Assembly (NCBI GenBank): GCA_963082975.1
Contig: OY720345.1
Location: 75,175,034-75,239,033, forward strand
Direction: 5' to 3'
DNA: 64,000 nucleotides
Source: Labia minor
Taxonomy: Eukaryota; Arthropoda; Insecta; Dermaptera; Spongiphoridae
Of the stretch, positions 214 to 49,300 are shown in pieces (the first letter of the stretch is position 1; every line of letters begins with the position of its first letter). The position numbers and the translations under genes were made by a program. Below the pieces are notes generated by a model. It was given only the letters and a program-made list of their open reading frames with translations, did not search any database and was not told where the DNA came from.

Positions 214-988
214 GGTGTGAAAACAGAACCGAACGACGATTTGAAATAAATTAATTTCTAAACAACATTATATATATATATAAAGTTCCAAAAAAAATAT
301 TTTTAAAACTTGAATTAAAATAACCAAATTAAATTATCTTGATTTTTATTTTTAGTTTAATTACTCAATTATTAATTACTACTCTTTAAGTGAAATATTT
401 TCCGACAATGAATATAAAATTAATACTTTGTAAACTACCACATCCGGTTTTTGGAAATACACTTAAAGTTGATAAATTCATGCTATTGATGCATTAACTA
501 AATATACCAAATTTTATCAAAATTTGTTGAGCCTTTCAAGCTAAACACTTCTATACGGACACACAATGGATAGACGGACGGACGGACAGATATGCTAAAA
601 ATACTTTTTTCTGTGAACAAATTGCATGATTCGTGGAGATATGTAAAAAATCTATATTACTTATGTGAAATTTGGTGTGAAAATAACACTTCCCTTCCTA
701 TCGTCGATCGGTAATACTACCACTTCCGGGTTCCGGATATACACCAAAAGTTGATCAATTCAGCATACTGATGCATTAAGTAAATATACCAAATTTTATC
801 AAAATCCGTTGAGCCCTTCAAACTGTACATGTCTATACGGACATACAATGGACAGACAAACAGACATTATGCTAAAAATACATTTTTTATGTTAAGAAAA
901 TGCATAATTCGTGGAGATTTGTAAAAATCTCCACATGTGAAATTTGGTGTGAAAACAATACCTCCCTTACTATCGTCGATCAGTAAAA
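214..988 (+). repeat. Repeat family A, copy with two internal modules
   Basis: Begins with a decayed version of the family terminus (GAACCGAACGACGA) followed by the family leader TTTGAAATAAATTAATTTC. It ends near TATCGTCGATCAGTAAAAAT. The core (CTTCCGG or CATCCGG, ACCAAATTTTATCAAAA, a GGAC tract, then ATGCTAAAAATAC) occurs twice in tandem, at about 440-690 and 715-985. No open reading frame of note. The 5' hairpin seen in other copies is missing. Other copies are at 1521, 4517, 12018 and 13922, with a partial one near 37120. The family name is unknown to me. Confidence 0.75.
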
Positions 989-1520: not shown

Positions 1521-2180
1521 ATAAGTTGACCTGTGGCCAGGTCTGAACCGACCGACAGTTTGAAATAAATTAATTTCCAGCTACAGAAACAATTTCAAAT
1601 AATTTTAATATATCTATTAATGTAATAAAAAACAGATATGGATATAACATAAATATTTTTAATTTTATTTTATTTATAATATATATGTAAGACCAGGCTG
1701 TGACGTCATATAATTTTAAATTAAGAAAAATAATTTTAAATTAAGACAAATAATTTTAAATTAAGAAAAAAACTAATAAAGATGATTTTTCTCGAATATA
1801 AAACCAATACAAAGTGAATGATTCGTGATAATATGTAAAAAATCTCCTCATATGAAATTTGGTGTGAAAATAACCCTTTCCTTCCTATCGTCGATCGCTA
1901 ATACTACCACTTCCGGTTTCCGGATTTGCACCAAAAGTTGATCAATTCATCCTACTGATGCATTAAGTAAATATACCAAATTTCATCAAAATCCGTTGAG
2001 CCGTTCAGGCTGTACACATCTATACGGACGGACAGACGGACGGACGGACGGACAGACATCATGCTAAAAATACTTTTTTCTGTTTAGAAAATGCATGATT
2101 CGTGGAGATATGTAAAAATCTCCACATGTGAAATTGGGTGTAAAAACAATACCTCCCTTACTATCGTCGGTCGGTAAAAA
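1521..2180 (+). repeat. Repeat family A, near-complete copy
   Basis: The 5' end carries a perfect hairpin, GACCTG-TGGC-CAGGTC (1528-1543). Next comes ACCGACCGAC (1547-1556), which is the exact reverse complement of GTCGGTCGGT at 2166-2175 near the 3' end; an A run follows. Internal marks are a GACGTCA site, the core CCACTTCCGG (about 1910), ACCAAATTTCATCAAAA (about 1976), a GGAC/AGAC tract (about 2030-2058) and ATGCTAAAAATAC. It is non-coding. The ends behave like inverted termini or a closing RNA stem. Confidence 0.8.
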
Positions 2181-3325: not shown

Positions 3326-3575
3326 CAGGGGTCGGCAACCAGGTGTCCGCGAAGCCATTTTCAAGTGCCCGCATTCAAATGTTTTGGCGATCAGGCTCTT
3401 AAACATTTTCGACTTTTTTCAATACGGTCCTAAAAAAAGGTAAAATGCTTTTGCGATCAGGCTCTTAAACATTTTCGACTTTTTTCAATACGGTCCTAAA
3501 AAAAAAAAGGTAAAATGCTTTTGCGATCAGGCTTTTTAATATGGCTCTAAGTATCACCAACTGTGCCCACCCCTG
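3326..3575 (+). mobile_element. hAT-type MITE (CAGGGG...CCCCTG ends)
   Basis: Starts CAGGGGTCGGCAACC and ends GTGCCCACCCCTG, typical hAT-like short inverted termini. Inside, a unit of about 74 bp (AGGCTCTTAAACATTTTCGA, then a T run, CAATACGGTCCTA, an A run and GGTAAAATGCTTTTG) is repeated two to three times. The same unit occurs in the MITE at 25668 and, more diverged, at 56136. No clean 8-bp target duplication could be confirmed here. No coding capacity. Confidence 0.7.
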
Positions 3576-4516
3576 TTATATTATTTCAGAAATGTGCCCG
3601 ACTATAGATCTTCGGAACACAGTATGTCCAGAATAACTCACCTAATATCCCAACACTTGGTCACTCAGACCCAAAAAAAATTCTCTCCTAAAAACTTGTC
3701 TTGAAAATAGCACCAAAATGGGCACCAAATCTAACAATTGAACGTAAAAATAACCCGGAAATATTTTTTTATAATAATAAAACCCTAAGAGAAACCTATA
3801 CCAACATATATATATATATATATATATATAATTCACTATATTTATATAGATTTTTATTTAAATTTAATATTTTATTAAATCCATATACGTTATGACACCA
3901 CTTATTTACCATATAATAGATTAATTATTAAGATTGATTACTCAATTGACTTTGTTTATTTTAACAATATAATAATAGTCAAAATAGGCATGAAAAACAA
4001 ACTCATGAGTAATGAGTTCCAAAAAGGAATTTTCATAAATAAAGATCAGAAGCTCTTAACATAACAGCCACACAAAGAATAGAAAATCACTAAGAAGACT
4101 CACTGAACTCGGAAGCGACATGGACCATTCAAAAACATCTAAAGCAAATGGATGTTGGATTTTTACAATGATGCTTGGATTTCTAGAGGAAAGGAATCTG
4201 GCCTGGCATTAGAGATGAGAGACCAATTAAATTAACTTTAGTAAAAAAAAAAAAATCGATCAAAACTTTCCCATTTAACAAGTTCTTTGATAACCATAAG
4301 TATATTTAATTTTCAATTAGAAATTAATAATTTTTAACGTTGAATAAATATTTTCCTAGATTCAAGTATCATATATAAAATATTTTAGAAATAAAATTAA
4401 ATAGCATCAAAAAAAAATCAAAAGCATTAAAAATTCTTTAATTCTCATTAAAATTAAACTAATATATATATATATATACTAATATAGAAATTATTTACTA
4501 GCTAACTATAAAACCA
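3576..4516. other. AT-rich spacer
   Basis: Contains (TA)n near 3807-3830 and 4462-4478. The two overlapping small frames across 3642-3895 run through this repeat and are not supported as genes. Nothing else recognised. Confidence 0.5.
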
Positions 4517-5008
4517 GTTGAGCTGTGGCCAGGCACAGAACCGACCGACGATTTGAAATAAATTAATTTCCAAACAACATTATATATATATAAAGTGTAA
4601 AAAAAATATTTTTAACATTTGAATTAAAATGACTAAATTATATTATCTTGGTTTTTATTTTTGGTTTAATTACTCAATTATTAATAACTACATTAAATGA
4701 AATATTTTCCGACAATGAATATAAAATTAATACTTTGTAAACTACCACTTCCGGTTTTCAGAAATACACTTAAAGTTGATAAATTCATGCTACTGATGCA
4801 TTAACTAAATATACCAAATTTTATCAAAATCTGTTGAGCCTTTCAAGCTATACACTTCTAAACGGACACACAATGGACAGACGGACGGACGGACAGATAT
4901 CATGCTAAAAATACTTTTTTCTGTGAACAAATTCGTGATGATATGTAAAAATTCTCCTCATGTGAAATTTGGTGTGAAAATAACCCTTCCCTTCGATCGG
5001 TACAAAAA
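4517..5008 (+). repeat. Repeat family A copy (single module)
   Basis: The 5' end is GAGCTGTGGCCAGGC followed by GAACCGACCGACGATTTG. The core CCACTTCCGG, ACCAAATTTTATCAAAAT and a GGAC tract follow, and the copy ends TTCGATCGGTAC. It resembles the 214-988 copy more than the 1521 copy in its leader (AACAACATTATATATATA). The 3' terminus is partly eroded. Confidence 0.7.
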
Positions 5009-7246: not shown

Positions 7247-7381
7247 GGAGTCGAGTGCGAGAGTCCAAGCTGAACGGACGCATTTCGAGAGAGCTGCCGA
7301 AACTTATAGTGGGGACATCTGCTTATCTTTTCTCACTTTGTCAGGTAGGAGACTCATTTATATAATATTTTGAGGAAAATA

Positions 7382-8161
7382 ATGGAAAAAACCGAATTAT
7401 TGAATTTCTTAAGAGAGTGGAAGGATGATATTAAAAATATAATAAAAAAGAATAATGAACATCTTGAAACTAAGTTATTCTCTTTGGTAGAACAAAAATT
7501 CGAAACGTTTGAAAAAAGATTAGTCGAACTTGAACAAAGAATGAGGAAAATGGAACATGAAAATAAATTAAAAAACATTATATTACATGGGCTGGATGAA
7601 GACGAGGAACATCCTGGCGAACTGGAGGATAAGGTGATATCAATCGTTAAAGAAAAAACCAATAATGAGATTAATATTGAACATATTAATATTATAAAGC
7701 GCATAGGACGCCCCTCAGAAAATAAAACAAGACCAGTTCTAATATCCATGCTGTCTTTGAGAAATAAAAAAATTATCCTCAGAAATAATAAAAAATTTAA
7801 AAATTCGAAGTATTACATTACTGATGATTTTCCCAAAGATGTATTGGCTAGAAGGAAAGAATTAATTCCTAAATTAATAAAGGCAAGGAAGGAAGGCAAA
7901 TTTGCCATATTAAAATACGATCAACTTATTATAGAAAAATTTGATAATGAATCGAATAAAAATAGAAATATTAAAAAAAGAGCATTAAGAAATTCTCCTG
8001 AAAATTCTAAAAATAGTTCAACTTATGATAAATTGAATGATAAAATAGAGAATAAAGAAAAAAGAATTAGACTAAATGAAGGCAAAATAACATCATTTTA
8101 TAATAAAATAGAGAAATGTGATGGGTCCCAAAAGCCTGACGAGAGTGATGACGATGAATAG
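7382..8161 (+). CDS. LINE ORF1 protein (coiled coil, RNA-binding-like)
   Basis: A 259-aa protein from the ATG at 7382; an upstream in-frame TTG at 7370 is not a credible start. Residues of about 15-70 are heptad-rich and acidic/basic (EQKFETFEKRLVELEQRM), a probable trimerising coiled coil. The next segment (IILHGLDEDE..., IKRIGRP, RPVLISM) resembles the RRM-like and C-terminal domains of L1-type ORF1 proteins, which bind element RNA and act as nucleic-acid chaperones. The tail is Lys/Asn-rich and ends in Asp/Glu. Codon use is AT-rich like the surroundings. The TAG stop is in the same frame as ORF2, with only GAA between TAG and the ORF2 ATG. Confidence 0.85.
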   Translation: MEKTELLNFLREWKDDIKNIIKKNNEHLETKLFSLVEQKFETFEKRLVELEQRMRKMEHENKLKNIILHGLDEDEEHPGELEDKVISIVKEKTNNEINIEHINIIKRIGRPSENKTRPVLISMLSLRNKKIILRNNKKFKNSKYYITDDFPKDVLARRKELIPKLIKARKEGKFAILKYDQLIIEKFDNESNKNRNIKKRALRNSPENSKNSSTYDKLNDKIENKEKRIRLNEGKITSFYNKIEKCDGSQKPDESDDDE

Positions 8162-8164
8162 GAA

Positions 8165-11100
8165 ATGATCATAGGAGCTAGGTCTTTAGAACATCTGAAA
8201 GAAAAAAATACTCAAAATCTCGACTCCTGCCCAGTAAGTCTGGTCAACTCGGGCATAACCGACCAAAACCTCCCAATTCATAATATTTTCGACCATACTA
8301 ACCTTAATAGAATTAATGATAATACTGAAAATAATAAATTAAAACAAAAGATTTCATTTAAAAAGAAAGATATAAATAGAAACTTAAATAAAAATAATTC
8401 AAAGGAAAAAAATAATAAAAATAAATATGAAAAAATAATACTAGCAACATTAAACGTTCGTAGCCTGAAAGACGAGGAAAAATTAATCGAACTTGAAAAT
8501 GCTCTTGAGGGTGTTCAAATTGATATTTTGGGGCTGTCAGAAGTAAAGAGAATAGGTGAAAAAATATTACAAAGAAAATCTGGCTATATTTTTTATTACA
8601 TTGGTCAGATAAGAGGAAGACGGGGAGTCGGTTTCATGGTAAAAAATAGCATGAAAAAATATATTGTGGAGTTTAGGGGTTTTTCGGATAGAATAGCACT
8701 TTTGAAACTTGCCTATAAAAACAATTGTACTATAACAATCGTACAAGTATATGCACCAACAGCGGAGGCTGATGAACAAACAACCGAGGACTTCTATATT
8801 TTGCTTGCCAATGTTGTAGACGAATACCGTAATAATATTAAAAATAAATTAATTCTAATTGGAGACTTCAACAGCCAAGTAGGAAAGAGAATAGAAGAAG
8901 AAAAGATGATCATCGGACCTTATGGCTATGGAAAAAGAAATGGAAATGGAGTTAGATTGGTACACTTCTGTCAAACAAACAATTTAAAAATTGTAAATAC
9001 ATTTTATAAGAAGAGAGCAGGTAGAAAGTGGACTTGGATGGCTCCAAATGGAATTTATAAAAACGAAATTGACTACATTCTATCTCCTCATATGAATTTG
9101 ATACGTAAATTTGAAATTGATAACAAATTTGCATTTTTCACCGACCATCGTTTAATAAAGGTAGAATTATCTTCGAGTGTAATTTTAGGAAGACCAAATC
9201 CAAAATGCAATAAACAAATCATGAAAATAATAAATATTCAAAATGTAACAACAGAAATTATTTTAAAAGTAGAAAATGAACTTAAAAATATCAATTTCTT
9301 CAATATTCAACAAACACAGGATCAATACGATATTTTTGAAAAAAATATAAAAATGTTGCAAGATAAATCCGAAGAATTATATAAAAAAAATCACAAGTTA
9401 TCTGAAAATACAAAAAAACTAATAAAACAAAGAAATGAATTAAAAATAAAAAGAAACACAATAAATGGTAAAATCGAACATAATATTCTTTGTAAATTGG
9501 TTAAATATCACATAAAAAAAGATTTAAAAGATTATAATGATAACATAATAAAAAATTATATAGAACCATATAATTCTATTAAAAAAATAAAAAAAGAACT
9601 ATCCATGGGAATTACATTAATTCCAAGTCTCAATGATGAAAATAAAAATCAAAAATTTAATAGAACCCAAATAAAAATTATAGCAACCAAATTTTATAAA
9701 AAACTATACAGTAATCCTAATATATTAAGGGAACATAACAACAACTTAATCCATCCAAATGAAAATATAAATATACCTCTATTTATTGAAAGTGAAATTG
9801 AATTCGTTATTAATAATTTAAAATCAGGAAAAACCCCAGGAATAGACGGTGTAAAAAATGAAATATTGAGACTCTCAATCAAACTAATTAAAAAGCCACT
9901 TACATCTATTTTTAATAATATAATTAAAAGTCAAATTATACCAAAACAATGGAAAACTTCCAATATAATGATCTTATTTAAAAAAGGTGATCCAAAGAAT
10001 ATTAAAAATTACAGACCGATAACAATTACTTCGAATATCGGAAAAATATTTATGAAACTAATTAATAATCGATTGGAAAATATCCTTACAAATTCGCAGT
10101 CAGTAGAACAAGCCGGATTCAGAAAAAACTATTCAACATGCGACCATCTGCACACATTAAATCAAATAATTGAAAAATCAATTGAATATAAAATAGAAAT
10201 TTACCTAGCGTTCATAGACTACGAGAAAGCCTTCGACTCGGTTTATCAAGAGAGTGTCTTTCACGCTATGATATCTCAAGGTGTGGACACTGGATATACC
10301 AACCTAATCAAAAAAATATACGAGGATTCGCAGGCAAGAGTTATTATTGATGATCCTGGACCTTTCTTTACTGTAGAGAGAGGCGTTAGACAAGGGGATC
10401 CATTGTCACCATTGTTATTTAACTGTGCTCTAGAAGAAGTGTTCCGTCAACTAAAATGGGAAAAGAGGGGCCTAAGAGTGAACGGACGATATTTAAGTAA
10501 TCTAAGATTCGCTGACGATGTGGTCGTTATAGGGACCTCAAAAAAGGAAATAAAAAGTATGATTAGAGAATTAAATCAAGAAAGCAAAAAAATAGGCCTC
10601 AAAATCAACAACAAAAAAACAGTGATAATTACAAATTGCGACGAAAGAGATATTTCTTATGGAAAAAATGAACCGCCCATCATATGTAAAAAAGAAATAA
10701 TTTACCTGGGTCAAAAACTAAATTTTAATAAATCAAGAACATATGAAGAATTAACAAGAAGAATAGGAATATCTTGGGGTAAGTTTTGGGGCTTGAAATT
10801 TATCTTAAAAAACAAAGAACTAGACATATCGTCTAAAATAAAAGTTTTTAAAAAGTGTATCTTACCAACACTTACTTATGGCTCACAAACATGGACGATG
10901 ATAGAAAAAATATCGACAAAATTGGAAACCACTCAGAGAAGTATGATAAGAAGTATACTTGGTGTGAGAAGGATGGATAAGCAACGAATAACCGATATTT
11001 ACAAGAAAACAAAGGTGGAAAATATCAACATAGCTGTAAGGAAGTTGAAATGGAGATGGGCAGGACATGTGGCGAGGATGAACAACGATAGGTGGACAAA

Positions 11101-11284
11101 AATCACTACCGAATGGTGTCCATTGGATAAAACCAGAAATCGAGGAAGACCGCCAAATAGATGGTCTAAAGAGTTCATTAGAGAAGTCGGAATAGACTGG
11201 ATGAAGATTGCAAGAGATAGGCCAAAATGGAAAAGACTGGGAGAGGCCTATGCCCTAAAAGGGCCTAGTTCCATACAAAAATAA
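8165..11284 (+). CDS. LINE ORF2: APE endonuclease and reverse transcriptase
   Basis: A 1039-aa polyprotein. An apurinic-like endonuclease domain spans about residues 92-335, with TLNVRSL near 95, LIGDFNSQVG near 233 and the terminal SDH-like TDHRLI near 325. A Lys/Asn-rich linker follows. The reverse transcriptase spans about 560-840, with YRPITITS near 615, FIDYEKAFDSV near 683, GVRQGDPLSP near 740 and the catalytic FADDVV near 781. The C-terminal part has KWRWAGHVARM near 960 and RGRPPNRWSKEF, a tail common in insect LINEs. The protein nicks target DNA and primes cDNA synthesis on it. All visible catalytic motifs are intact. The start ATG is 4 nt after the ORF1 stop and in the same frame. 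Confidence 0.95.
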   Translation: MIIGARSLEHLKEKNTQNLDSCPVSLVNSGITDQNLPIHNIFDHTNLNRINDNTENNKLKQKISFKKKDINRNLNKNNSKEKNNKNKYEKIILATLNVRSLKDEEKLIELENALEGVQIDILGLSEVKRIGEKILQRKSGYIFYYIGQIRGRRGVGFMVKNSMKKYIVEFRGFSDRIALLKLAYKNNCTITIVQVYAPTAEADEQTTEDFYILLANVVDEYRNNIKNKLILIGDFNSQVGKRIEEEKMIIGPYGYGKRNGNGVRLVHFCQTNNLKIVNTFYKKRAGRKWTWMAPNGIYKNEIDYILSPHMNLIRKFEIDNKFAFFTDHRLIKVELSSSVILGRPNPKCNKQIMKIINIQNVTTEIILKVENELKNINFFNIQQTQDQYDIFEKNIKMLQDKSEELYKKNHKLSENTKKLIKQRNELKIKRNTINGKIEHNILCKLVKYHIKKDLKDYNDNIIKNYIEPYNSIKKIKKELSMGITLIPSLNDENKNQKFNRTQIKIIATKFYKKLYSNPNILREHNNNLIHPNENINIPLFIESEIEFVINNLKSGKTPGIDGVKNEILRLSIKLIKKPLTSIFNNIIKSQIIPKQWKTSNIMILFKKGDPKNIKNYRPITITSNIGKIFMKLINNRLENILTNSQSVEQAGFRKNYSTCDHLHTLNQIIEKSIEYKIEIYLAFIDYEKAFDSVYQESVFHAMISQGVDTGYTNLIKKIYEDSQARVIIDDPGPFFTVERGVRQGDPLSPLLFNCALEEVFRQLKWEKRGLRVNGRYLSNLRFADDVVVIGTSKKEIKSMIRELNQESKKIGLKINNKKTVIITNCDERDISYGKNEPPIICKKEIIYLGQKLNFNKSRTYEELTRRIGISWGKFWGLKFILKNKELDISSKIKVFKKCILPTLTYGSQTWTMIEKISTKLETTQRSMIRSILGVRRMDKQRITDIYKKTKVENINIAVRKLKWRWAGHVARMNNDRWTKITTEWCPLDKTRNRGRPPNRWSKEFIREVGIDWMKIARDRPKWKRLGEAYALKGPSSIQK

Positions 11285-12017: not shown

Positions 12018-12658
12018 ATTCAAATAAGTTGACCTGTGGCCAGGTCCGAACCGACCGACGGTTTGAAATAAATTAATTTCCAGCTACAGAAACAATTTCA
12101 AATAATTTTCATATATCTATTAATGTAATAAAAAACAGATATGGATACATAAATAATAAATATAAACATTTTTAATTTTATTTTATTTATAATATATATG
12201 CAAGACCAGGCTGTGACGTCATGAATGACTGGATGACGTCATATAATTTTAAATCAAGAAAAAACTAATAAATATGATTTTCCCGAGGATAAAACCAATA
12301 CAAAGTGCATGATTCGTGGTGATATATAAAAAAATCTCCTTTGGTGTGAAAATAACTCTTTCCTTCCTATCGTCGATCGCTAATACTACCACTTCCGGTT
12401 TCCGGAATTGCACCAAAAGTTGATCAATTCATCCCACTGATGCATTAAGTAAATATACCAAATTTCATCAAAATCCGATGAGCCGTTCAGGCTGTACACA
12501 TCTATACGGACGGACGGACAGACGGACGGACAGACATCATGCTAAAAATACTTTTTTCTGTTTAGAAAATGCATGATTCGTGGAGATATGTAAAAATCTC
12601 CACATGTGAAATTTGGTGTGAAAACAATACCTCCCTTACTATCGTCGGTCGGTAAAAA
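12018..12658 (+). repeat. Repeat family A, near-complete copy
   Basis: Hairpin GACCTG-TGGC-CAGGTC at 12031-12046, then ACCGACCGAC at 12050-12059. This is exactly complementary to GTCGGTCGGT at 12644-12653, followed by AAAAATA. It is very similar along its length to the 1521-2180 copy, including ACAGATATGGATA, GACGTCA (twice), CCACTTCCGG and a GGAC/AGAC tract (12508-12535). The similarity of the two copies suggests recent mobility. Confidence 0.82.
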
Positions 12659-13921: not shown

Positions 13922-14700
13922 TTACCGACGATAGGAAGGGAGGTATTGTTTTCACACCAAATTTCACATGTGGAGATTTTTACTTATCTCCACGAATCAT
14001 GCATTTTCTTAAAAGAAAAAAGTATTTTTTAGCATGATGTCTGTTTGTCTGTCCATTGTGTGTCTGTATAGACATGTACAGTTTGAACGTCTCAACAGAT
14101 TTTGATAAAATTTGGAATATTTACTTAATGCATCAATAGCATGAAGTTATCAACTTTAAGTGTATTTCCAAAAACTGGAAGTGGTAGTATTACCGATCGA
14201 CGATAGGAAGGGAAGGGTTATTTTCACACCAAATTTCACATGTGGAGATTTTTTACATATTTCCACGAATCATGCAATTTGTTCACAGAAAAAAGTATTT
14301 TTAGCATGATATCTGTCTGTCCGTCCGTCCGTCCATTGTGTGTCCTTATAGAAGTGTATAGCTTGAAAGGCTCAAAAGATTTTGATAAAATTTGGTATAT
14401 TTAGTTAATGCATCAGTAGCATGAATTTATCAACTTTAAGTGTATTTCCAAAAACCGGAAGTGGTAATTTACAAAGTATTAATTTTATATTCATTGAGGG
14501 AAAATATTTCACTTAAAATATAGTAGAAATTAATAATTGAATAATTAAACTAAAAGAGTAAAAACCAAGATAATAAAATTTAGTCATTTTAATTTAAATG
14601 TTAAAAATATTTTTTTTTACACTTTATATATATATAATGTTGTTTGGAAATTAATTTATTTCAAATCGTCGGTCGGTTCTGTGCTTGGCCACTAAACTCT
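13922..14700 (-). repeat. Repeat family A copy with two internal modules
   Basis: Minus-strand copy. Its 5' end (plus 14700 down) reads GTGGCCAAGCACAGAACCGACCGACG and its 3' end at 13926 reads ATCGTCGGTAAAAAA. Two tandem core modules are present (CACTTCC or CCAGTTTTTGG versions, GGAC tracts near 14310-14340 and 14040-14070), as in the copy at 214-988. Only about nine terminal bases still match their 3' complement. Confidence 0.75.
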
Positions 14701-18692: not shown

Positions 18693-21600
18693 ATTTACCG
18701 AGCGAGCAATCGGTGTGTATCATGTTAAATGGGGAAGAGTCTGAACTTTGGTTCATCAATATTAATAATACAAAGGTAAGCATTGTTTGTAGAATTGTAT
18801 TATAAAATTCATTCAATATAGAATTAATAATAATATTTTCTTTAGTTATTTAATTTATTATATAATTATAAACATATTTACTTGTTAGAAGAGGAGGTAT
18901 TATAAAACATTTTTAAAACATAAACAAATCAATATTTTCTTAATGATAAAGATTAAAGAATAATATTTATCTATTGAAAAACTTACTACATTTTTTAAAT
19001 TAATAAATAGAAAGTTTAATATGAAAAATTAGTGACTTTTAATAATTTATTTTGTATATATATATATATGTATGTGTTACAGTTAAAGTATAAATTGCAG
19101 TGAGTGAATACACCCACTAGCTAAAGCATACTTTGACTAAATAATCAGAAAAAGTATAGTCAAATAAATTTATGAATACTTACACCAGTAGGTATAATTT
19201 TATATAAACATCCATATCACACCATACGCATTGCTGACAATTAATACAAAAAAAAAATTAGCTGGAATGTCTCCACTCGACTATCTCGTAATTTGAATTG
19301 GATTAAATAACATAATATATTATATTTAAATTAAATTTAATTAATTATAAATTATAAATAATAAATATTAAACCAGCGCATCTTTGCTTTTTATTGATGG
19401 CACCATGGCACGTGTTGGCGCGTGAGATTTGCAGTGCTAAAAAATTAATTCTGGTACTTTCAGCGATTCAATCAAACTGAAATTCTATATATAGCAGTTT
19501 TATACAATTATTAATCATGTGAAAAATTATCAAACATATATCTTTATTTTTACGGTCACTTTAGAGGAAAAAAAATCAAATCGTTGTAGGTAATGACCCT
19601 CTTCCGGTTGAGCTACATTTCTCAAAAGTTGATAGAAAACTATGAATTTTGAATAATGTCCATGTACCAAATTTCATCATTCTAGCTCCAACCGTTTTTG
19701 CGCAATCTTGTCTACATACATACACACACACATACACACACAGACATTTTTCTCAACCTTAGTGAAAATGATTCAGGAACCTTCAAAACGTATAAAAACA
19801 TCAAATTCTCAACATCGAAAATTTTCGTGATCGCAATACTATCTCTTACGAGATAGTAATAATACATATATAAGCCAAGAATCTTTATTATCCTACAAAT
19901 ATTGAAGGGTGGTAGTGATGTTGACAATTATTCTCTTAATTCTGTATGAATGCATTGACTAGATATAGTAAATAACATTTGAAATAATGTATACTTTCAC
20001 TAAAACAAATGAAATCATGAATCAATTAGTTAGTGATTTCACTCACTACAATTTATGCTTTAATTGTAACATACATATTTTAACATATATATTTTATTAC
20101 TTCCTTGAAACAAAAAACAAAAAAAAAAAGAATCTTATCTTATTATGCTAGCTAAAATTGTATATATCTATCTATCTATATATCATGGTTCTCAAAAACC
20201 GCTCTAACGATTTTTTTCAAATTCACACTAGATATAGTATTTATAAAGAAAAATTAAGTTTTATTGATGATATCTCTTGAAACATTCAGCTTCATTATTA
20301 ATTTCTTAATTGAAAATTATATATGGAAAACGTCAAAATTGGCCTCCATTTTTATTTGTATTAATATTTTTTTTTATTTAAAATATTTTAAAATTTATTA
20401 TTTAATTTCGAAATAAAATTAAAAATATTTATTTTTAATAAAATATATATAGATATTTATTAATCTCTCTCAAAAAAAAAAAAATAAAATAAAAAACATC
20501 AAATCTGCCTGCTAAGACAGTAAAAAAATGACAATTTTTTATCTAAATACATATAGTCCAGCGGTTGGACTGATGTTTTAACGATTGGATTTCGTCGGTT
20601 CGAAACTCTCCGGGTGAATCGTTATTTAAAAATGAAAATAATGAATTTGTTATTTTTTTTCTTTTTATCTATTGTTTACATTTTAATAAATTACTATTTT
20701 ATATTTATTTATTCATTGTTCTTTTATTAAATTTAATATTTATTAATATTATTTATTATTAATTTATATATTGATGACATCACAAATGACATTTATATTG
20801 AAATTTGACTCCCGCCTTTTTTTAAAGAATATTGTATTAATATTTTTTTTATATTTAAAATATTTTAAAATTTTTTATTTAATTTCGAAATAAAATTAAA
20901 AATATATATTTTTTTTATATTTAAAATATTTTAAAATTTTTTATTTAATTTCGAAATAAAATTAAAAATATATATTTTAATAATATTTTATAATTATAAA
21001 TTACGATATATATTTATCAATAATAATGAATTTTTTTTTTTTAACTTAATTACAGAGCCGAGGCTCGGGGTCCCGGTATGATCTTAATATATTGTGAGAA
21101 TTAGATAAATAATGTAGAGAGAAAAAAATATTTAAAAATAGATATTTATTTAAATGAAATAAAATTATTTAATTTACAGAATGAAAATGTCTATAATAAT
21201 GTCTAAACATTTTTTCTTTATAATTTTACATTATAATAATACTAATTACAGTAGTTATAATATATGGGGAATTTTCAACTTTGACTGCCGATTTGACCAT
21301 GTTCCCAAACGAATTTTAAAAAAACCAAGACCACTTTACATTTATTTACACATTTTAAGCTCTAATCGAATCCAAAATCAAAATTTAAAAAATCGAAAAA
21401 CAAACTCACAGATATATAGATTTTATAAATGAACATTTATACAATTTATTTTAATTAATTTGAAACATTTTAGGAAACAAATTTTTAATGGGTCATTTTT
21501 AGAAATCCCATTTAACAATTATAATAAATAATTAAAAAATTGTAAAATTTTTAAAGTATATAAAAATAAATTGTATAAATTGGTTAAAGGGTCGAGTGAT

Positions 21601-24600: not shown

Positions 24601-26557
24601 AATGATTTGATATTGTATTTAGTACACCTAGGTATATCTGAAAATTTCTTCCAATTATTTCATTTGAAATTAGACGATTTCTCAGGTACGTGGGTGTTAT
24701 TTTTCCAAAAAATATCAATGTTTAGTAGAATATTTTATGTATTTTGTAAAACCTTTATATATAAAATGACTATTTGATTAATTTAAGAATTTATTGAAAA
24801 ATTAAATGAATTCAATTTATTTCTAAAACCTATACTTATTAATGTAAAAAGAACAAAAACAGAGTGCAATATTTATTTACCATATTTAATCAAAATCAAT
24901 AAAAAAAAATTAATTTAATTTTTCAAAGGCATTAAGTATTTAATTTTCCATCCAATATACCTAATAGATTTATCAATTAAAATTCTTGACTTTATTAGTC
25001 AACGATATTTTACAAAAAAATTATATATTTTTTAAAGTTATTAATAGTATTTTACAACTGTTTTAATTATACCCTAAATTAAATTTTATTTTATTATTTT
25101 TTAATTTAATTTTTATTTAATTCCAATCCTAATAGCTTTTAGAACTATATGGTACATATGTATGTATATGTAGAAATCTCGATTAGATTAAAAAATTTTA
25201 ATTTTTTCATTAAACATTCTAATTTATTTTGTAATTTTCTAAAATTATATTTCATTTTACAATTTCTTTTATTAAAAATTAATAATATATACAATCAATA
25301 GGTAAACAAAATCCATTCAATTTTATATCCTCTGTCAATCTATCATATCCTTGTTTAACCATGCCAGTCGTTACCAAATGGATTGATTATGAAGTTACTT
25401 GTTATACAATTCCCTAAAAATCTCATTTTTTTTTTACGAAGAATATTTTAATTTTTTCTTATTTTGTGTGTTCCCCTTAGAGATTGATCGTTATGATCAT
25501 GTAAAACGGATGTAAATATACACTTTAATAATAATAAGTTGTTGTATAAGTTCGCGCGGAACTGAAATGAAATGAAATGAAGAAACCAACCCATTTTGCA
25601 CATAGTTTTTGGAAACCCAAATTAACACTCAAAATATTGCTCACTGTGCCCATTAAAATGCCTAAATCAGTGATTCTCAACCACTGTGCCGCGAGATTTG
25701 CAAAATATGCCGCCAAATTCTACAAATATAAAGAGGCTCTTAAACATTTCCGACTTTTTTTTAATATGGTTTTTTTTAAAAAAGGTAAAATGTTTTTGGT
25801 ATCAGGCTCTTAAACATTTTCGACTTTTTTTTCAATATGGTTCTAAAAAAAAGATAAAATGTTTTTGGGACCAGTCTCTTAAACAATTTCGATTTTTTTC
25901 AATTTCTTCAATATCGTAAATAAGTAAATAACTTTTACACTTATCTTTTTCTTTGTGTTCCTTCAAATTTTTAATCCGTTAAAAGTGTGCCCCGGTAAAA
26001 AAAAAAGGTTGGGAATCACTGGCCTAAAGCCTCTGTTAAATCTCTTTCAGTCAATCGATGGTCTTCCAATACCATATCTTATCGCTCCGCGAACTTATTG
26101 AACAACTCTAGTAGTTATACTATATCATCTATTCCTCAAATTATTTTTTTTTGTCCTTTCTTTTATTTTATAAAAAAATAAGAAATATATTAGGGCAAAG
26201 CTCTAATATTAAAACAATTTCTAAAACATATTTATATATGTTGTTTTTAAATTTTTTTTTTAATTATTAATCTGTTTTCGATTTTAATTTTCAGATGGTA
26301 AATGCTTGGCATGCACTTATCGAGCGAAATTTATAGAAATCTCCGTTGGAATAAGTCATAACGTCGACGAACTTCTAGTAGGAATTTTAACACAGATACG
26401 TCTTAAAATATCGAATTCTGACACATCGACCAGCACTGGTTGGTATAAAAGTCGAGGAATGGTGCGAGCAACAATGAAAGCTCGACAAATGTTCACATGG
26501 ATTTTTGGAAAAGAGGACTCCAAGTTTAAAAATTGCGAAAATTTACATGTAGTTTAA
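18693..26557 (+). CDS. Rgk: RGK-family small GTPase, C-terminal three exons (partial)
   Basis: Exons 18693-18775, 22743-22932 and 26295-26557, joined by GT-AG introns in consistent phase, give the last 177 residues. The first exon continues an upstream one (2 nt complete a codon). Readable features are SEQSVCIMLNGEESEL, YSVIDKASF, the guanine-specificity motif VGNKVDLV, then RSRAVSAQDGK and KFIEISVGISHN. The C-terminus KFKNCENLHVV carries the RGK signature Cys seven residues from the end and no CAAX box. The classical DxxG switch-II motif is absent, as expected for RGK proteins (Rad/Gem/Rem), which inhibit voltage-gated calcium channels and remodel the cytoskeleton at the membrane. The P-loop exon is not in this window. 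Introns are 3.97 and 3.36 kb and full of repeats. Confidence 0.93.
19260..19859 (+). repeat. Repeat family B, copy 1 (in GTPase intron)
   Basis: Starts GCTGGAATGTCTCCACTCG, containing the hairpin-like GGAATGTCTCC, followed by ACTATCTCGTAA (19280-19291). This is the exact reverse complement of TTACGAGATAGT at 19846-19857. The 3' end also folds locally (ACTATCTC-TTAC-GAGATAGT). The core is CTTCCGGTTGAGCT, AAAAGTTGATAGAAA and ACCAAATTTCATCATT. A CATACACACACA tract precedes CAGACATTTTTCTCAACC. The copy at 47050-47661 is nearly identical. The minus-strand frame at 19712-19927 is a translation of this repeat. Confidence 0.82.
19860..20552. other. AT-rich intron sequence
   Basis: Holds TTATTATGCTAGCTAAAATT (about 20139), repeated at about 22348, and one unit (about 20361-20445) related to the tandem repeat at 20840. 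Nothing coding. Confidence 0.45.
20553..20628 (+). repeat. tRNA-derived SINE head or tRNA pseudogene
   Basis: TAGTCCAGCGGTTGGACT fits a pol III A box, and TCGGTTCGAAACTCTCC, about 43 bp later, fits a B box. The spacing is right for a tRNA-derived promoter. A full cloverleaf with paired acceptor arms is not evident, and a T-rich AT tail follows. I favour a SINE head over a functional tRNA. Confidence 0.5.
20840..20976. repeat. Two tandem ~66-bp AT-rich units
   Basis: ATATTTAAAATATTTTAAAA followed by ATTTAATTTCGAAATAAAAT is repeated twice in tandem here and once more at about 20370-20445. Each unit is internally palindromic. Confidence 0.75.
21051..21078 (+). repeat. GC-rich hairpin motif, variant 1
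   Basis: GAGCC-GA-GGCTC with the tail GGGGTCCCGGTA. It is matched by variant 1 at 22570-22597 and resembles variant 2 at 21589 and 22488. It is strongly GC-rich inside AT-rich intron DNA. Confidence 0.7.
21589..21618 (+). repeat. GC-rich hairpin motif, variant 2
   Basis: GGGTCGAGTGATAGTTCGG then TGTCCCAGGTA. Relative to the 22488 copy, both arms of the stem carry one transition (C to T), so pairing is only partly kept through G-T. Confidence 0.7.
21723..21828 (-). pseudogene. LINE reverse-transcriptase thumb fragment
   Basis: The minus strand reads LMANTGGPSQSKRRLLLVAA, then QSMMLYGSEIWAL. This is the 'NxxGPR..KRRLL..V..S.LLYG..IW' segment after the RT domain of R1/Jockey-type LINEs, a different group from the intact LINE at 7247. 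Only about 35 codons remain. Confidence 0.75.
22488..22517 (+). repeat. GC-rich hairpin motif, variant 2
   Basis: GGGTCGAGCGACAGCTCGG then TGTCCCAGGTA; a perfect CGAGC-GACA-GCTCG stem bracketed by GGG and CCC. Confidence 0.75.
22570..22597 (+). repeat. GC-rich hairpin motif, variant 1
   Basis: TACCGAGCC-GA-GGCTCGG then GGTCCCGGTA; the outer TACCG can also pair with the final CGGTA. It lies 53 bp after the variant-2 copy. Confidence 0.75.
23341..23882. mobile_element. Foldback element with ~168-bp inverted arms
   Basis: The left arm 23341-23508 and right arm 23715-23882 are inverted copies with only a few mismatches (ends GGTAATTATACAGGAGACTG and its complement). An 8-bp direct duplication, AAAAATAT, flanks it (23333-23340 and 23883-23890). 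The loop holds about 2.3 tandem copies of a 72-bp unit (TAACTTTRGTATGAATAAAA..., starts near 23549, 23621 and 23693). It sits in the second intron of the GTPase shown here, so the primary transcript would contain a long hairpin. The minus-strand frame 23516-23713 is just the loop repeat. Confidence 0.92.
23891..25560. other. AT-rich intron sequence
   Basis: Low-complexity AT-rich DNA with no recognised exon or repeat family. Small TATG repeats near 25153. Confidence 0.5.
25565..26110 (-). pseudogene. Mariner transposase relic split by a hAT MITE
   Basis: On the minus strand, the part upstream of the MITE (26110 to 26022) reads MVLEDHRLTERDLTEALG. The part beyond it (25667 to about 25585) resumes with ILMGTVSNILSVNLGFQK then LCAKWV. 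Together these are the second helix-turn-helix of a mariner-type transposase. There is an upstream stop, and no catalytic region was recognised. The plus-strand and minus-strand frames called over 25525-25919 are shadows of this relic and the inserted MITE. Confidence 0.75.
25668..26021. mobile_element. hAT-type MITE with 8-bp target duplication
   Basis: Ends CAGTGATTCTCAACC and GGTTGGGAATCACTG are inverted. They are flanked by GCCTAAAT (25660-25667) and GCCTAAAG (26022-26029), an 8-bp duplication with one mismatch, as hAT elements make. The interior repeats the AGGCTCTTAAACATTT unit (CGACTTTTTTT, AATATGG, then GGTAAAATGTTTTTGG) about three times, the same unit as in the MITE at 3326. Confidence 0.93.
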
Positions 26558-35500: not shown

Positions 35501-38500
35501 TCTTAGTAAATTAGAAGAATTAACCCATTCTAGAAATAAAAATATTGGAAATGAAGTGGTAATTATTATTTTAACAAATATTTTATTTAAATTTCTATAG
35601 CTTATTCTTCATTTTTTTATTATTAGTTAATGCTCACAAGACTAATCTTTCAAATCCATGTTGGATATGAATGGACACCAGAATCTCGACAAATTATTGA
35701 AGCAGTTGTTCGTAAAATTAACCCTTGGTCGATGTATCGTGTGGCAAGAAATGCAGCTCGATATGGCCAACATTCGATTGCTATTGATCTCTGGGATCAA
35801 TTGCTAAGTCAGGTGTCAAGTGAGCATTATCACTTTTGGTTTGTTGGATTAGAGGAATTAAGTCGTGCCGAAGCAATATTGCATGATGAAGTATCTAAAC
35901 CAGCTGTTCTTACTCGGATTACACTAGCTTGTGCTCATTATCATAAAGCCTATGCCGCAATTAAAGTAAGTTAGCTTTCATTTTAAATTTAGGCACATAA
36001 ATAGAAATTAAAATGAATTTGTTCAAAACAATTTAATTAATAAATAAATTTATCTAAAATTTTAATCTCAATATTGTTGTAGGCCGCCACCCTCTCATCC
36101 ACATGCACTATTCCATTTCATACAGAATATTTACGACTACGTACTGAAATGCTCCAATGTCTTGGTCAGTTAGTAGCTGCATGTCAAAGTGTTTGTACTA
36201 GTCCTCCAGCAGCAATTGCAAGTACTGTTGCAGACACTCAACGAGATTCAATGTTGAGAAGTGGACATGTCATTTATCAGGTTTTTTTCAAATTATATAA
36301 TACTATCATAATCAAAATTAAAATTTATTTAAAATAAATTAGAAGAAAATCTTACATTAACTCCATTTTCAAAAATGCATCTAATTAATAAATATTAATA
36401 TTATTTATTTAAAATACATTTGAATAAGGTGTTTTTATATTTTATTTCAGTTGCGGAAAAGTTCAAAAGATTTAAAAAATTGTAGTGAACAATTATGGAA
36501 ACTTTATCAATGCTCATTTGATGCTGATCCTTCCACATTATATAATATTCATATGTATCCTTTTTCATCATGAATTTGAAAATAATTCTTTTAGAAAATA
36601 TCTTAAATTAAAATTATCTATTAGAATTAATTTTAAGACACAATTCATTTTTTTTTAAATGGATTGAAAAAATTCTTCAATACTTTTATTCATTAAATCT
36701 TTTGTGGTATACTCATTTGCTTTAGCAAATAACGTTATTTAGTTTTTTAGAAATTGTAATTAGTTTTGAAAATTTTAGTAAATTTTTCTTAATGTGTCTT
36801 TAAATTAATATAGATTACAACAAATGTGTGTTTTATTGGCATACTCCATCGACAAGGTTGCTAACTTAAATAATACTGATGAACCACCTCCAATAGATCT
36901 TGGGTAAGTAGTTATAATAAGCGGGAGTGTCCTCCCCTAGACTTTCCCGCATATAAATAGGTATAAAGAGTTGTGAATGCATATTTAGAATGTGTAAACT
37001 TGGTATTGATAAAGAGCCAGTTCGTTAGTTTATTGGTGTCAAATTTGATATTTGGTAACATTTATATATATATATATATAGAATAAAGTGCTACTTCCGG
37101 TTAACTGATATTTTAAATGTAAAAAAAAACAGATATGGATATAATATAAATATTTTTAATTTTATTTTATTTATAATATATAAGGGCTGGCTGTGACGTC
37201 ATGAAGTGCTGGGTGACGTCATATAATTTTAAATTAAGAAAAAACTAATGAAGATGATTTTTCTCGAGGATAAAACCAATACAAAGTGCATAACACGTGG
37301 AGATATGTCCTGACGTGAAATTTGATATGAAAATAACCCTTCACTTCCTCTCTTCGATCGGCAATACGAGCACTTCCGGTTTCCGGATTTGCACCAAAAG
37401 TTGATCAATTCATCATACTGATGGATTAAGTAAATATACCAAATTTCATCAAAATTCGTTGAGCCGTTCAAGCTGTACACATCTATACGGACGGACGGAC
37501 GGACAGACATCATGCTAAAAATACTTTTTTCTGTTAAGAAAATGCATGATTCGTGGAGATATGTACCTAAAAATATCCACAGGTGAAATTTGGCGTGAAA
37601 ACAATACCTCCCTTACTATCGTCGGTCGGTAAAAAGGAAACGCTACTTGTATAGGTAAAATGTCACTTCCGGTAGTCAGATCATGATGAAATTTGGTATC
37701 TGAATTTTTTTCATATTTTTAAATCTATATACAAAATATGAAGCAAATATCTCGAAGCAAACTGGTACTTTACTTGAAAGGTAAGCGCAACCAGTGTAGG
37801 TAAAGTACCACTTCCGGTTAACCGATTTTGACCAAATTTTGATAGAAATCTACAAACTGTGAATAATATCGGTGTACCAAATTTCGAAGTCCTAGCTTGA
37901 TTAGTTTTTGAGTAAATTTGCTTACAGACATTACATACATACATACACACACACAGACATAATTCGAAAAATGGTATTTTCCGACTCAGGGAGGTCTATC
38001 GAAATCTCGAAGTCGAAATTTTTGACGATTCCAATACTTCCCTTATACGAAGTATGCGGGAAAGTAAAAATATAAAAAAACAATTCATGATGATTGAATT
38101 ATTTAAATAAAGAAATTATAAATAATTTAAATATCTAATCTTTCTAAAAACCTCAAATATGATAGTGTAAAAATTCAGTAGATTATTTTTATTCACAAAT
38201 TAATATTTTATGATATTTAAATATTTACATAAAAATTAAAAAAATACATATCCAAAGTGAATGAAGTAAGTTTTTAATTCTCATATTATGCGGTAAAAGA
38301 GTTATTTCATCAAAAGTATTATTAAAAATATCCAAATTAAAATCTAAAAAACTACAATTTTGCCGGTTGTATGAATATGAAACGAGAATAGTTAGAAGGT
38401 ATATGAAAGGAGAATTCTCTTCATAGAATTTATGGAATGAAAAATTCGCACGGGATAGTTCAGATTACACGATGAGGAATCAATTGATTAATTTAAATAA

Positions 38501-46300: not shown

Positions 46301-49300
46301 TATGTGCTAATATAAGTAGATGCGTAACCCACCGCATCGAGAACACCACTCTATTGAACATTTAATATTCATAATTTTTATTCATTTTAAAAAAATGAAA
46401 CATGAAATAACAATTTTTTTTATTAAATATGTGGTTTATACTTAATACAAATAATTAAGAAACTAAACTTGAATTTGCAAATTTTTTTTTTAAACAAATT
46501 GAATATTAAAATCTTCGCAAAATGATCAACATTACCGAAAAATCTTTTGCTTTTTTTTTTTATTCTCTTTATATTGATTTTCAATTGTCTTCAAATTAAA
46601 GATGTTTATAAGTGACAGGTAATAAAAAACTCTTTGAAAAAGAAAAGGGAAAAAAAGCAAGAGGTATTTTTTAAGAAACTTGGTGGAAACATCAATTCGT
46701 CTCACCTGAATAGACAAAATGAAATATTTTCTTTGTCCATTCGCGAAGCTCATACATTTAATTTTGGCATTTTTTAAAGTGATGAGGGTGTGTAATGTAA
46801 TGGACAGGTGTAAGAGTTAATAAAAAACAAAAAAAAACCTATTAAGGTAATTTATTTGGAAATTATTTAAAATTACCTTAAAAAACCCTTTAAAATTAAT
46901 ATTTATTACAATATTTTTACTGGTATAGAAATTAAGATGATTTATGTCATAGCAAAATTATCATATTTACAAATGCCTTAGAAAATGGACAAAATAAAAT
47001 ACATGATTTGTCAACAAATTAGGATACAAATTGGTCTAATTTAAAAAATAAGCTGGAGTGTCTCCACTCGACTATCTCGCAATTTGAATTGAATTAAATA
47101 ACATAATATATTATATTTAAATTAAATTTAATTAATTATAAATTATAAATAATAAATATTAAACCAGCGCATGTTTGGCTTTTTATTGATGGCACCATCG
47201 CACGTGTTGGCGCGTGAGATTTTCAGTGTTAAAAAATTAATTCTGGTACTTTCAACGATTCAATCAAGCTGAAATTCTATATATAGCAGTTTTATACAAT
47301 TATTAATCATGTGAAAAATTATCAAACATATATCTTTATTTTTACGGTCACTTTAGAGGAAAAAAAATCAAAACGTTGTAAGTAATGACCCTCTTCCGGA
47401 TGAGCTACATTTCTCAAAAGTTGATAGAAAACTATGAATTTTGAATAATGTCCATGTACCAAATTTCATCATTCTAGCTCAAACCGTTTTTGCGCAATCT
47501 TGTCTACATTTATACACACACACATACACACACACACACACACAGACATTTTTCTCAACCTTAGTGAAAATGATTCAGGAACCTTCAAAACGTATAAAAA
47601 CATCAAAATCTAAACATCGAAAATTTTCGTGATCGCAATACTATCTCTTACGAGATAGTAAAAAACGAATAAATAAAGTTTTTTAAAAAGTAAATAAATT
47701 ATCAATTAAAAAATAAATAAAATTCTTTAATGATATTTAATAATAATTAGAAGAAAATATAAAAACCGAAAAAAAAATATTGTAATGATTTGGCTAAATC
47801 TTCTATTCTATTGAATATAATTTTGATGAAGAAATTTTGAATTTGATATTATGATTAAATTAAATTGATGTAAGCGTTTAATTTTATTAAATACAATTAT
47901 TATTATTATTACATTATTATAATATTATTCTAAATAGTTATAAATAAATATTTTAATATTTTATAATATAATTGTTTTCTTAATCATATTATATTTATAT
48001 GTTCAAAAGTTTAGATACATTTTATATTTTAAATATTTATCAAAAATAATTATATTATATATAAAAAAATTTATGGTTTAAAATTTTGAATTTATAAAAA
48101 ATTTTCTTAATAATTATAAACGATACCTCAAAACTATTTAAGTAGTTAAAAAAATATCAAAACGTTTAAATTCATAAATTTGTACTTAAATGTGTTTATG
48201 TTGTAAATCAATTAATAATGTCAATATTTAATTAAAAATTCATACACATAAATTATAAAATATGTTCTGATGGTTAGCCAAAATGGAAATTGAAAAAATA
48301 AATACTAAGCAATCAAATATAAAAATGTCTTCTTTGTAATGTTTTTTTTTTAAAATTAAATAAAATTTCTAAGATGAACGTGCATGATATATAATGCAGA
48401 TAAAATAAATATACTAAGGTAAAAAAAAAAACATTTGACTTTACTATAAATAATAATTAATTGTCATTCTATTTATTTTTTTAAGATATAAAACAAATTA
48501 ACAAAAAAAAAAAATCTAATGATTTTAACTTTCTCAATTGTATTGTATATACATTTATCATTAAATAATCATAGTTTTTCTTCATCATACTCCATCCATA
48601 TTTATTTATATTCTACCTTACTGAATCGAAATGGTTATTATTTGTTTTTATTTATAATTTATTTTAGATTCAAGAATTAATCATAGAATTATATGAAATA
48701 TAACATTTTTATTATAAATAAAAATCAAAATATTCATTAAATTTTGAAATATTATATATTTTGTTTGAATAAATTCTAAATATCAGATGGATTAATTAAG
48801 ATTAAGGAAAATTTATTTTTATATTATTATTACTATTATTATTATAGATACATATTTATAAATAAGATCTGAATTGTAGAGGTTAAATCATTTTAAGGGT
48901 TACTAAGAAGATTAAATCTTTTTAACCTTTTAACCTGAGAATGATAACCTGTTCTGTTTTATGAATATTTTTCAAACCAATTATTATTTGCTCAGGAAAT
49001 CCATGACCTATTGAAGCAAAATCCATTATTTGATATAGAGAAGGGAATAAGATAGTCAGGTAAAAGAATCAATAGAACAATTAGATTAAAAAAAATTGTT
49101 GAATGAGTGTTTTTATAGGAGAGACTTTAATGCACGATAATAATTTTTTCATATTATCATTAGGGATACAACTAATTCGTTTTTCTCAATTTTTTATTAC
49201 ATTTTAATTGCTTTGTTTTAATTTATTTTTCTAATAGGAAATTCAATTTCAATTAAAATCTGATTGATTTCAAGCCATCTCATTTAAACCTGCCAATGAC

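Follow-up and report, generated by a model that had tools for sequence, protein, structure and literature searches.

The window, that is, the whole 64,000-nucleotide stretch of Labia minor DNA analyzed here, has an A+T content of 75.7% and carries a LINE at 7349-11284 whose two long open frames span 270 and 1040 aa, the latter including endonuclease and reverse transcriptase domains. Integrator subunit 7 is represented by matching exons, and an ORF with a C4 zinc finger of the nuclear-receptor type, which we take to resemble knirps, lies at 43345-44532. Short tandem units (AGGCTCTTAAACATTTTCGACTTTTTT and relatives), spaced about 66-70 nt, lie at 3377-3504 and 25734-25918. The initial annotation of the window had described three dispersed repeat families (A, B, and C) with a common architecture; these families are real, and the sequences and positions of all five named copies were as described. 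Repeat finding and blastn within the window revealed three extra related copies (D1, E1, and E2). The copies and their main parts, including the subterminal inverted repeats (subTIRs), are as follows.

1522..2177, reverse strand: A1, family A copy, TTAC...CTTA; same boundaries in 28/28 fetched genome copies, A1 included
1528-1533 and 1538-1543, reverse strand: arms of the A1 3' hairpin
1547-1556 and 2166-2175, reverse strand: A1 subTIRs
About 1910 to 2059, reverse strand: A1 core, GGAC tract included
12025..12655, reverse strand: A2, family A copy
19258..19859, reverse strand: B1, family B copy, with the palindromic 5' subTIR ACTATCTCGTAAGAGATAGT (as read on that strand) and a CA/CATA tract
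47049..47661, reverse strand: B2, family B copy
36918..38067, reverse strand: C, composite element; C 5' block at about 37636-38067, C 3' part at 36918-37115
37116..37635, reverse strand: 520-nt A piece inserted in C, which keeps an intact A 5' end but lacks the hairpin and 3' subTIR of the A 3' end
4514..5003, reverse strand: D1, A-related, with ends in decay, the hairpin and one of the two subTIRs being degraded
223..986, reverse strand: E1, A/D composite containing a tandem pair of cores; 3' end replaced by a short 5'-block piece at about 207-224
13924..14692, forward strand: E2, two-core composite like E1 in opposite orientation, 89.9% identical to E1 over 776 aligned columns

Judged from sequence, families A, B, and C match the published DINE-1/HINE plan when read on the reverse strand, and we assign them, with a probability of about 0.94, to the nonautonomous Helentrons (DINE-1-like elements, or HINEs). 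In all three, the reverse strand shows a T-run, TTAC, the 5' subTIR, an inverted arm (imperfect in A), a microsatellite, the conserved core, a matching 3' subTIR, the 3' hairpin, CTWA, and another T-run. Family A reads TTTTT-ACCGACCGACG-...-AAGGGAGGTATTG-...-(GTCC)n-...-GATTTTGATGAAATTTGGTA-...-CCGGAAG-...-(C)GTCGGTCGGT-TTCAGACCTG-GCCA-CAGGTC-AACTTA-TTT, and the same module order is repeated in B and C. The view of the initial annotation that the families, being nonautonomous and mobile, belong to one superfamily built from a shared core and modular ends is supported; the published name for such elements is DINE-1-like HINEs. The small hairpin that it had placed at the 5' end does exist, but the functional orientation is the reverse strand, so that it is the 3' hairpin; the terminal A run, which had been counted as part of the element, is mostly T-rich target instead. 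No match was obtained in Rfam at gathering thresholds. The elements are noncoding to judge from Pfam, in which the three ORFs of at least 70 aa that they contain matched no Rep/helicase family, and Rep/helicase domains were absent from the 50 of 59 window ORFs of at least 70 aa searched against that database.

To define the element ends, copies were fetched as numbered loci (L015 and so on) from the 604-Mb, 71-contig assembly. The family A sample comprised 28 copies (best 40 of 4847 candidates scored) and the family B sample 30 (best 40 of 4749 candidates scored), each including a window copy; one B copy with a 5' deletion was left out, leaving 29 parsed. Both samples consist of best-scoring copies and are uninformative on the truncated fraction. 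All 28 A copies start with TTACC (read by eye) and finish with CTTA, preceded by TT in 27 and TA in one, and followed by TT in 25. Likewise, all 30 B copies start with TTAC (by eye), while the 29 parsed ones finish with CTAA (17), CTTA (11), or CTTT (1), with TT (21) or TA (8) in front and TT behind in 28. The frequency of trailing TT (25/28 in A and 28/29 in B) compares with 0.153 in the window. Thus, in the genome copies of A and B the ends coincide with the paired segments, so that the outcome which the initial annotation had named as counting against its reading did not arise; the ends of family C were read letter by letter from the window copy, together with the search coordinates of its genome matches.

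Five copies lying within other repeats were compared with the uninterrupted repeat after removal of TTAC...CTWA, the target T's being kept. Four of these sites rejoin without a change in length, and no target duplication longer than 2 nt is present there: L016, L040, and L068 restore the uninterrupted length with at most one substitution close to the joint (across the joint, L040 equals the variant that L018 and L027 carry), and L018 has the same length as the empty form with two substitutions. L015, which is 4 T's longer than its single paralogue, is a counter-case to clean rejoining. A 2-nt TT duplication fits L016, L018, L040, and L068 equally as well as a TT owned by the element. The flanks of the window copies share words no longer than 7 nt (in B1, away from the element ends), with AAAAAA shared at the ends of B2; of 2000 random flank pairs, 482 shared at least 6 nt.

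The two ends of A1, A2, B1, B2, and C are complementary to a degree (information weighted) that was equaled by 14, 10, 37, 171, and 11, respectively, of 20,000 random window pairs of similar spacing, and the pairing is not significant at the ends of D1, E1, and E2 (7718, 693, and 1513 of 20,000 random pairs). Over 11 columns, own-family pairing is 11/11 and cross-family pairing 3, 5, and 8 of 11. Eight of the 11 subTIR columns vary between families A, B, and C, and the probability that all pairs would be kept under independent re-dealing of the letters of these three families, descent being ignored, is 7.6e-5. The subTIRs, for which HINEs have about 11-15 bp, measure 10-11 nt in A, 9 nt (exact) or 11/12 in B, and 13 nt in C. 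The B pair originally proposed, TTACGAGATAG, does pair but is a minority form found in 3/29 parsed copies, versus 24/29 for TTGCGAGATAG and 2/29 for others; the usual pair matches at 11 of 12 positions, its 3' subTIR being one short of full pairing in those 24 of 29 copies. In addition, the supposedly common CAATACYWYCYCTTA is exact in B but one base shorter in A and C. The idea of a selected, closed terminal stem stands as to the pairing that is kept but not as to closure, because the 3' hairpin lies outside the subTIR pair.

In these covarying ends, both subTIRs of a family, and in B also the inner arm, appear to remain one word. Such a common word could reflect either the pairing of single strands or a double set of sites for a single protein domain, and covarying ends alone do not prove a nucleic-acid stem, because inverted protein-binding words that change with the Rep give an identical pattern. 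Covarying ends are a known property of the DINE-1/HINE class, since the available text on DINE-1 reports subTIRs that differ by species (D. willistoni has three types) and hairpins whose stems vary without loss of pairing (PMC2374699). The inverted arm beside the 5' subTIR, or the palindromic subTIR itself, folds strongly in B (0 and 1 of 300 shuffles as good), with 18/300 in C; the imperfect inner arm of A folds no better than shuffles (169/300 for both A1 and A2), and the value for D1 is 276/300. The single 3' hairpins are weak against mononucleotide shuffles (11/300 each for A1 and A2, 22/300 for C, 32/300 for B1, 45/300 for B2, and 100/300 for D1). A hairpin after the 3' subTIR is nevertheless present in A, B, and C, kept in the genome copies of A and B, and lost in D1, so that its support comes from conservation, not from single-copy folding statistics. 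A structural scan of 359,874 bases, which is not a census since most of this DNA came from loci chosen for A or B, some of them overlapping, gave 67 hits, all of the A, B, or C end classes, and none in the control.

The shared core was borne out by a ladder of motifs, with TTCCGG at 0, GTTGAT at +24 or +25, CCAAATTT at +65, and CAGAYAT at +137 to +149, that has the same spacing in 8 of the 10 cores compared (A1, A2, B1, B2, C, D1, E1b, and E2a); E1a and E2b have lost TTCCGG, and hence no offset was computed. Local alignment supported these relationships, with z values of 5.4 for A1-B1 (1 of 500 shuffles as good), 5.9 for A2-B2, 10.3 for A1-C, and 30.3 for B1-C (0 of 500 shuffles each). The microsatellite by the core is GTCY rich in A (GGAC on the forward strand), with CA/CATA at the same place in B and C. 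The core patterns had no matches in viral contigs, and four forms of the core string were absent from the literature text searched. A two-motif version of the pattern occurred at 13 places in viral contigs, which were judged to be chance, none having the remaining ladder (by eye).

Exact 5' ends number 21,212 for A, 2,184 for B, and 2,874 for C genome-wide, with 0 for the reversed controls. Those of A are equal on the two strands (10,606 each), which is taken as a coincidence, and the density of the listed places agrees with the count. If each 5' end marked a full copy, A would make up ∼2% of the 604 Mb, ends inside C composites being counted too. The best non-self identity to the window copies is 94% for A, 99% for B, and 98% for C, and the latter two values suggest that B and C probably moved recently. 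Head-to-tail neighbors were also observed: L072 holds two B copies with 1 nt between them, L073 a B copy plus B fragments, L074 an A joined directly to a following B, and L075 a D-type element followed by A, while an exact C-C junction occurs twice in the genome, CTTA and TTAC being separated by 0 nt in one case and 1 nt in the other. In the available text of the published work, tandem Helitron arrays are ascribed to a bypassed terminator (PMC4067079), and Helraiser is described with a bypassable 3' hairpin terminator and circular intermediates (PMC4778049).

The family C element at 36921 was confirmed as to family, but it is not a single element, 520 nt of it (37116-37635) being family A. The A 5' end lies about 435 nt into C in the same orientation, and the A 3' end is missing. 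Of the 10 C 5' ends listed for the first 3.57 Mb of contig C1, 6 are followed 449-478 nt downstream by an A 5' end in the same orientation, and 4 are not (by eye). Among the best 40 of 2690 candidates in a DNA search with the whole composite, the A block was spanned by 40/40, and 26 matches (the window copy included) run over 1-1154, with non-self identities of 92-98%; best scores favor full composites, and the proportion of C copies without A is not given by this search. Because all 40 of these best-scoring matches carry the A piece, the sequences clearly point to C as a composite of two elements amplified as a unit. E1 and E2 likewise share one two-core arrangement (89.9%). As further observations, E1 and E2 have a second core and 5' block stacked upon an A/D element, the 3' end of E1 (207-224) is fused to a 5'-block stretch, TTTTCACACCAAATTT on the reverse strand, resembling a head-to-tail joint with a small deletion, and family A itself contains a remnant 5' block at 1808-1900.

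A search of the genome with PF14214 gave 104 matches (126 candidates, all scored), and the 30 Rep loci fetched carry RGLPH (23), RGSPH (4), or neither (3). The S between G and P is a Helentron mark according to the available text of PMC4067079, and by this mark the genome encodes a Helentron-type Rep/helicase (RGSPH). Loci L101-L104 form a family of near-identical Helentron-type copies; L104 contains Helitron_like_N, PIF1, and DUF6570 domains, its upstream region is 98% identical to that of L102 over 2 kb, and this Rep family looks recent by that similarity. Eight RGLPH loci (L082-L088 and L090) share an identical motif stretch and have open frames of 1537-1655 aa, a sign of what may be a recently spread canonical Helitron. 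An autonomous partner with A, B, or C ends, which the initial annotation had envisaged, was not found among the loci examined: blastn of A-D against the 30 Rep loci gave hits in three (L099, one weak hit of 47 nt; L100; and L105), none bracketing the Rep as element ends, and the flanks of L104/L102, the one Helentron family examined beyond its ORF, contain no A, B, or C ends.

These Rep loci also bear on a very unlikely alternative, that the families derive from canonical Helitrons rather than Helentrons. The long open RGLPH frames and the prevalence of RGLPH (23 of 30 fetched Rep loci) would suit it, as would the CTRR-type ends of B (CTAA in 17/29) and D1 (CTGG) and, according to the available text of PMC4344730, the similarly planned insect Hel-2 elements, described with CTRR ends. 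However, the canonical features (5' TC, 3' CTRR, and insertion between A and T) were not those found: the 5' end is TTAC, not TC, A finishes with CTTA in 28/28, CTAA occurs in part of B, the targets are T rich, and canonical Helitrons as defined in the available text of PMC4067079 have no subTIRs. Slightly less probable still are MITEs of the cut-and-paste type, which would have inverted ends and duplicate a 2-nt TT target. The subTIRs are inverted, and the numbers of T's at the empty sites would be explained equally well by a TT duplication and by an element-owned TT, but the repeats are offset at one end with the hairpin outside, head-to-tail tandems exist, TT is found on the 5' side in 58/58 fetched and on the 3' side in 53/57 parsed copies (a small difference), and the published partners of such a plan are Helentrons in the available text of PMC4067079. 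The slenderest chance belongs to SINE-like retroposons with the forward-strand A run as a poly(A) tail, for which the A run at the forward-strand end of A1, A2, B2, and C, the nearby LINE (7349-11284) with its reverse transcriptase and endonuclease domains, and the A piece in C, lacking its forward-strand 5' end like a truncated retroposon, might speak, but T's occur at the opposite end as well, apart from the ambiguous TT no duplication is seen where four empty sites rejoin, ARAGORN found no tRNA in the window, and the covarying inverted ends and 3' hairpin are left unexplained. The full length of the best 40 of 4847 A matches carries no weight against SINEs, because best scorers are full length by selection.

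As nonautonomous Helentrons, the three families can be compared with several known systems, each in the terms of the available text. The DINE-1 plan consists of a 5' subTIR at or near the end, a partial inverted arm, a GTCY tract, a conserved core, an internal 3' subTIR, a 3' hairpin, and a TT target (PMC2374699). Like DINE-1/INE-1 of Drosophila, the families here have a 5' subTIR that is terminal or lies 1-2 nt in, a 3' subTIR in an internal position, a partial inverted arm (clearest in B), a conserved core, a GTCY-rich tract (family A only), a 3' hairpin with a changing but pairing stem, a TT target, and several end types per genome; unlike in DINE-1, CA/CATA takes the place of GTCY in B and C, and the A, B, and C subTIR sequences differ from those of DINE-1 (PMC2374699). 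The HINEs of mite, Culex, and other animals share the 3' palindrome, the terminal T's, the lack of any target modification found, and a Helentron protein in the genome, with a palindromic subTIR in mite and Culex as in B, but differ in that a partner with matching ends was not found here among the loci examined (PMC4067079). Similarly, Cg_HINE of the Pacific oyster has an 11-12-bp subTIR, a 7-12-bp complementary arm, a GTCY/GTCC tract, and a 3' palindrome after the 3' subTIR, although its modules are separated by satellite arrays (PMC7492417). The insect Hel-2 Helitron-like elements, reported from several insect orders, Hymenoptera included, resemble the present families in having an inverted repeat at the 5' end followed by a (CTGT)n tract, subterminal repeats that pair, and a 3' hairpin, and differ from family A, which ends with CTTA, in their 3' CTRR ends (PMC4344730).

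From these features we infer a series of rolling-circle steps and the action of a Helentron-type Rep on the A, B, and C ends. A Helentron Rep/helicase/endonuclease supplied from elsewhere would recognize the family-specific 5' subTIR and its inverted arm and nick beside TTAC; a single strand would then be peeled toward the 3' subTIR and 3' hairpin, which may serve as partner site and terminator, and the copy would be joined into a T-rich target. The 5' and 3' subTIRs (and the inner arm) would change together, because they have to fit one protein and/or base-pair with each other in single-stranded form, while the internal core would be kept. Head-to-tail tandems and composites such as C could arise by read-through or when a new copy inserts at the T's next to a resident element.

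What is new here are further members of an already known class; the kind is ordinary and the support good, and a large set of the repeats of this genome is thereby placed in a named class. Moreover, the amplified composite C has an outer C and an inner A 5' end but a single 3' end, that of C, and it might have reached high copy number via its matched C-C ends. Taken with the three end classes, which cross-pair poorly yet have one conserved core in common, it could represent a natural experiment indicating that end matching, not the core, decides mobilization and that the core has a separate function, a proposal that we regard as tentative and rather doubtful. The three end classes and the amplified composite coexist in this genome, with copies reaching 98-99% identity, and thus offer material on the functions of the subTIR pair and of the core.
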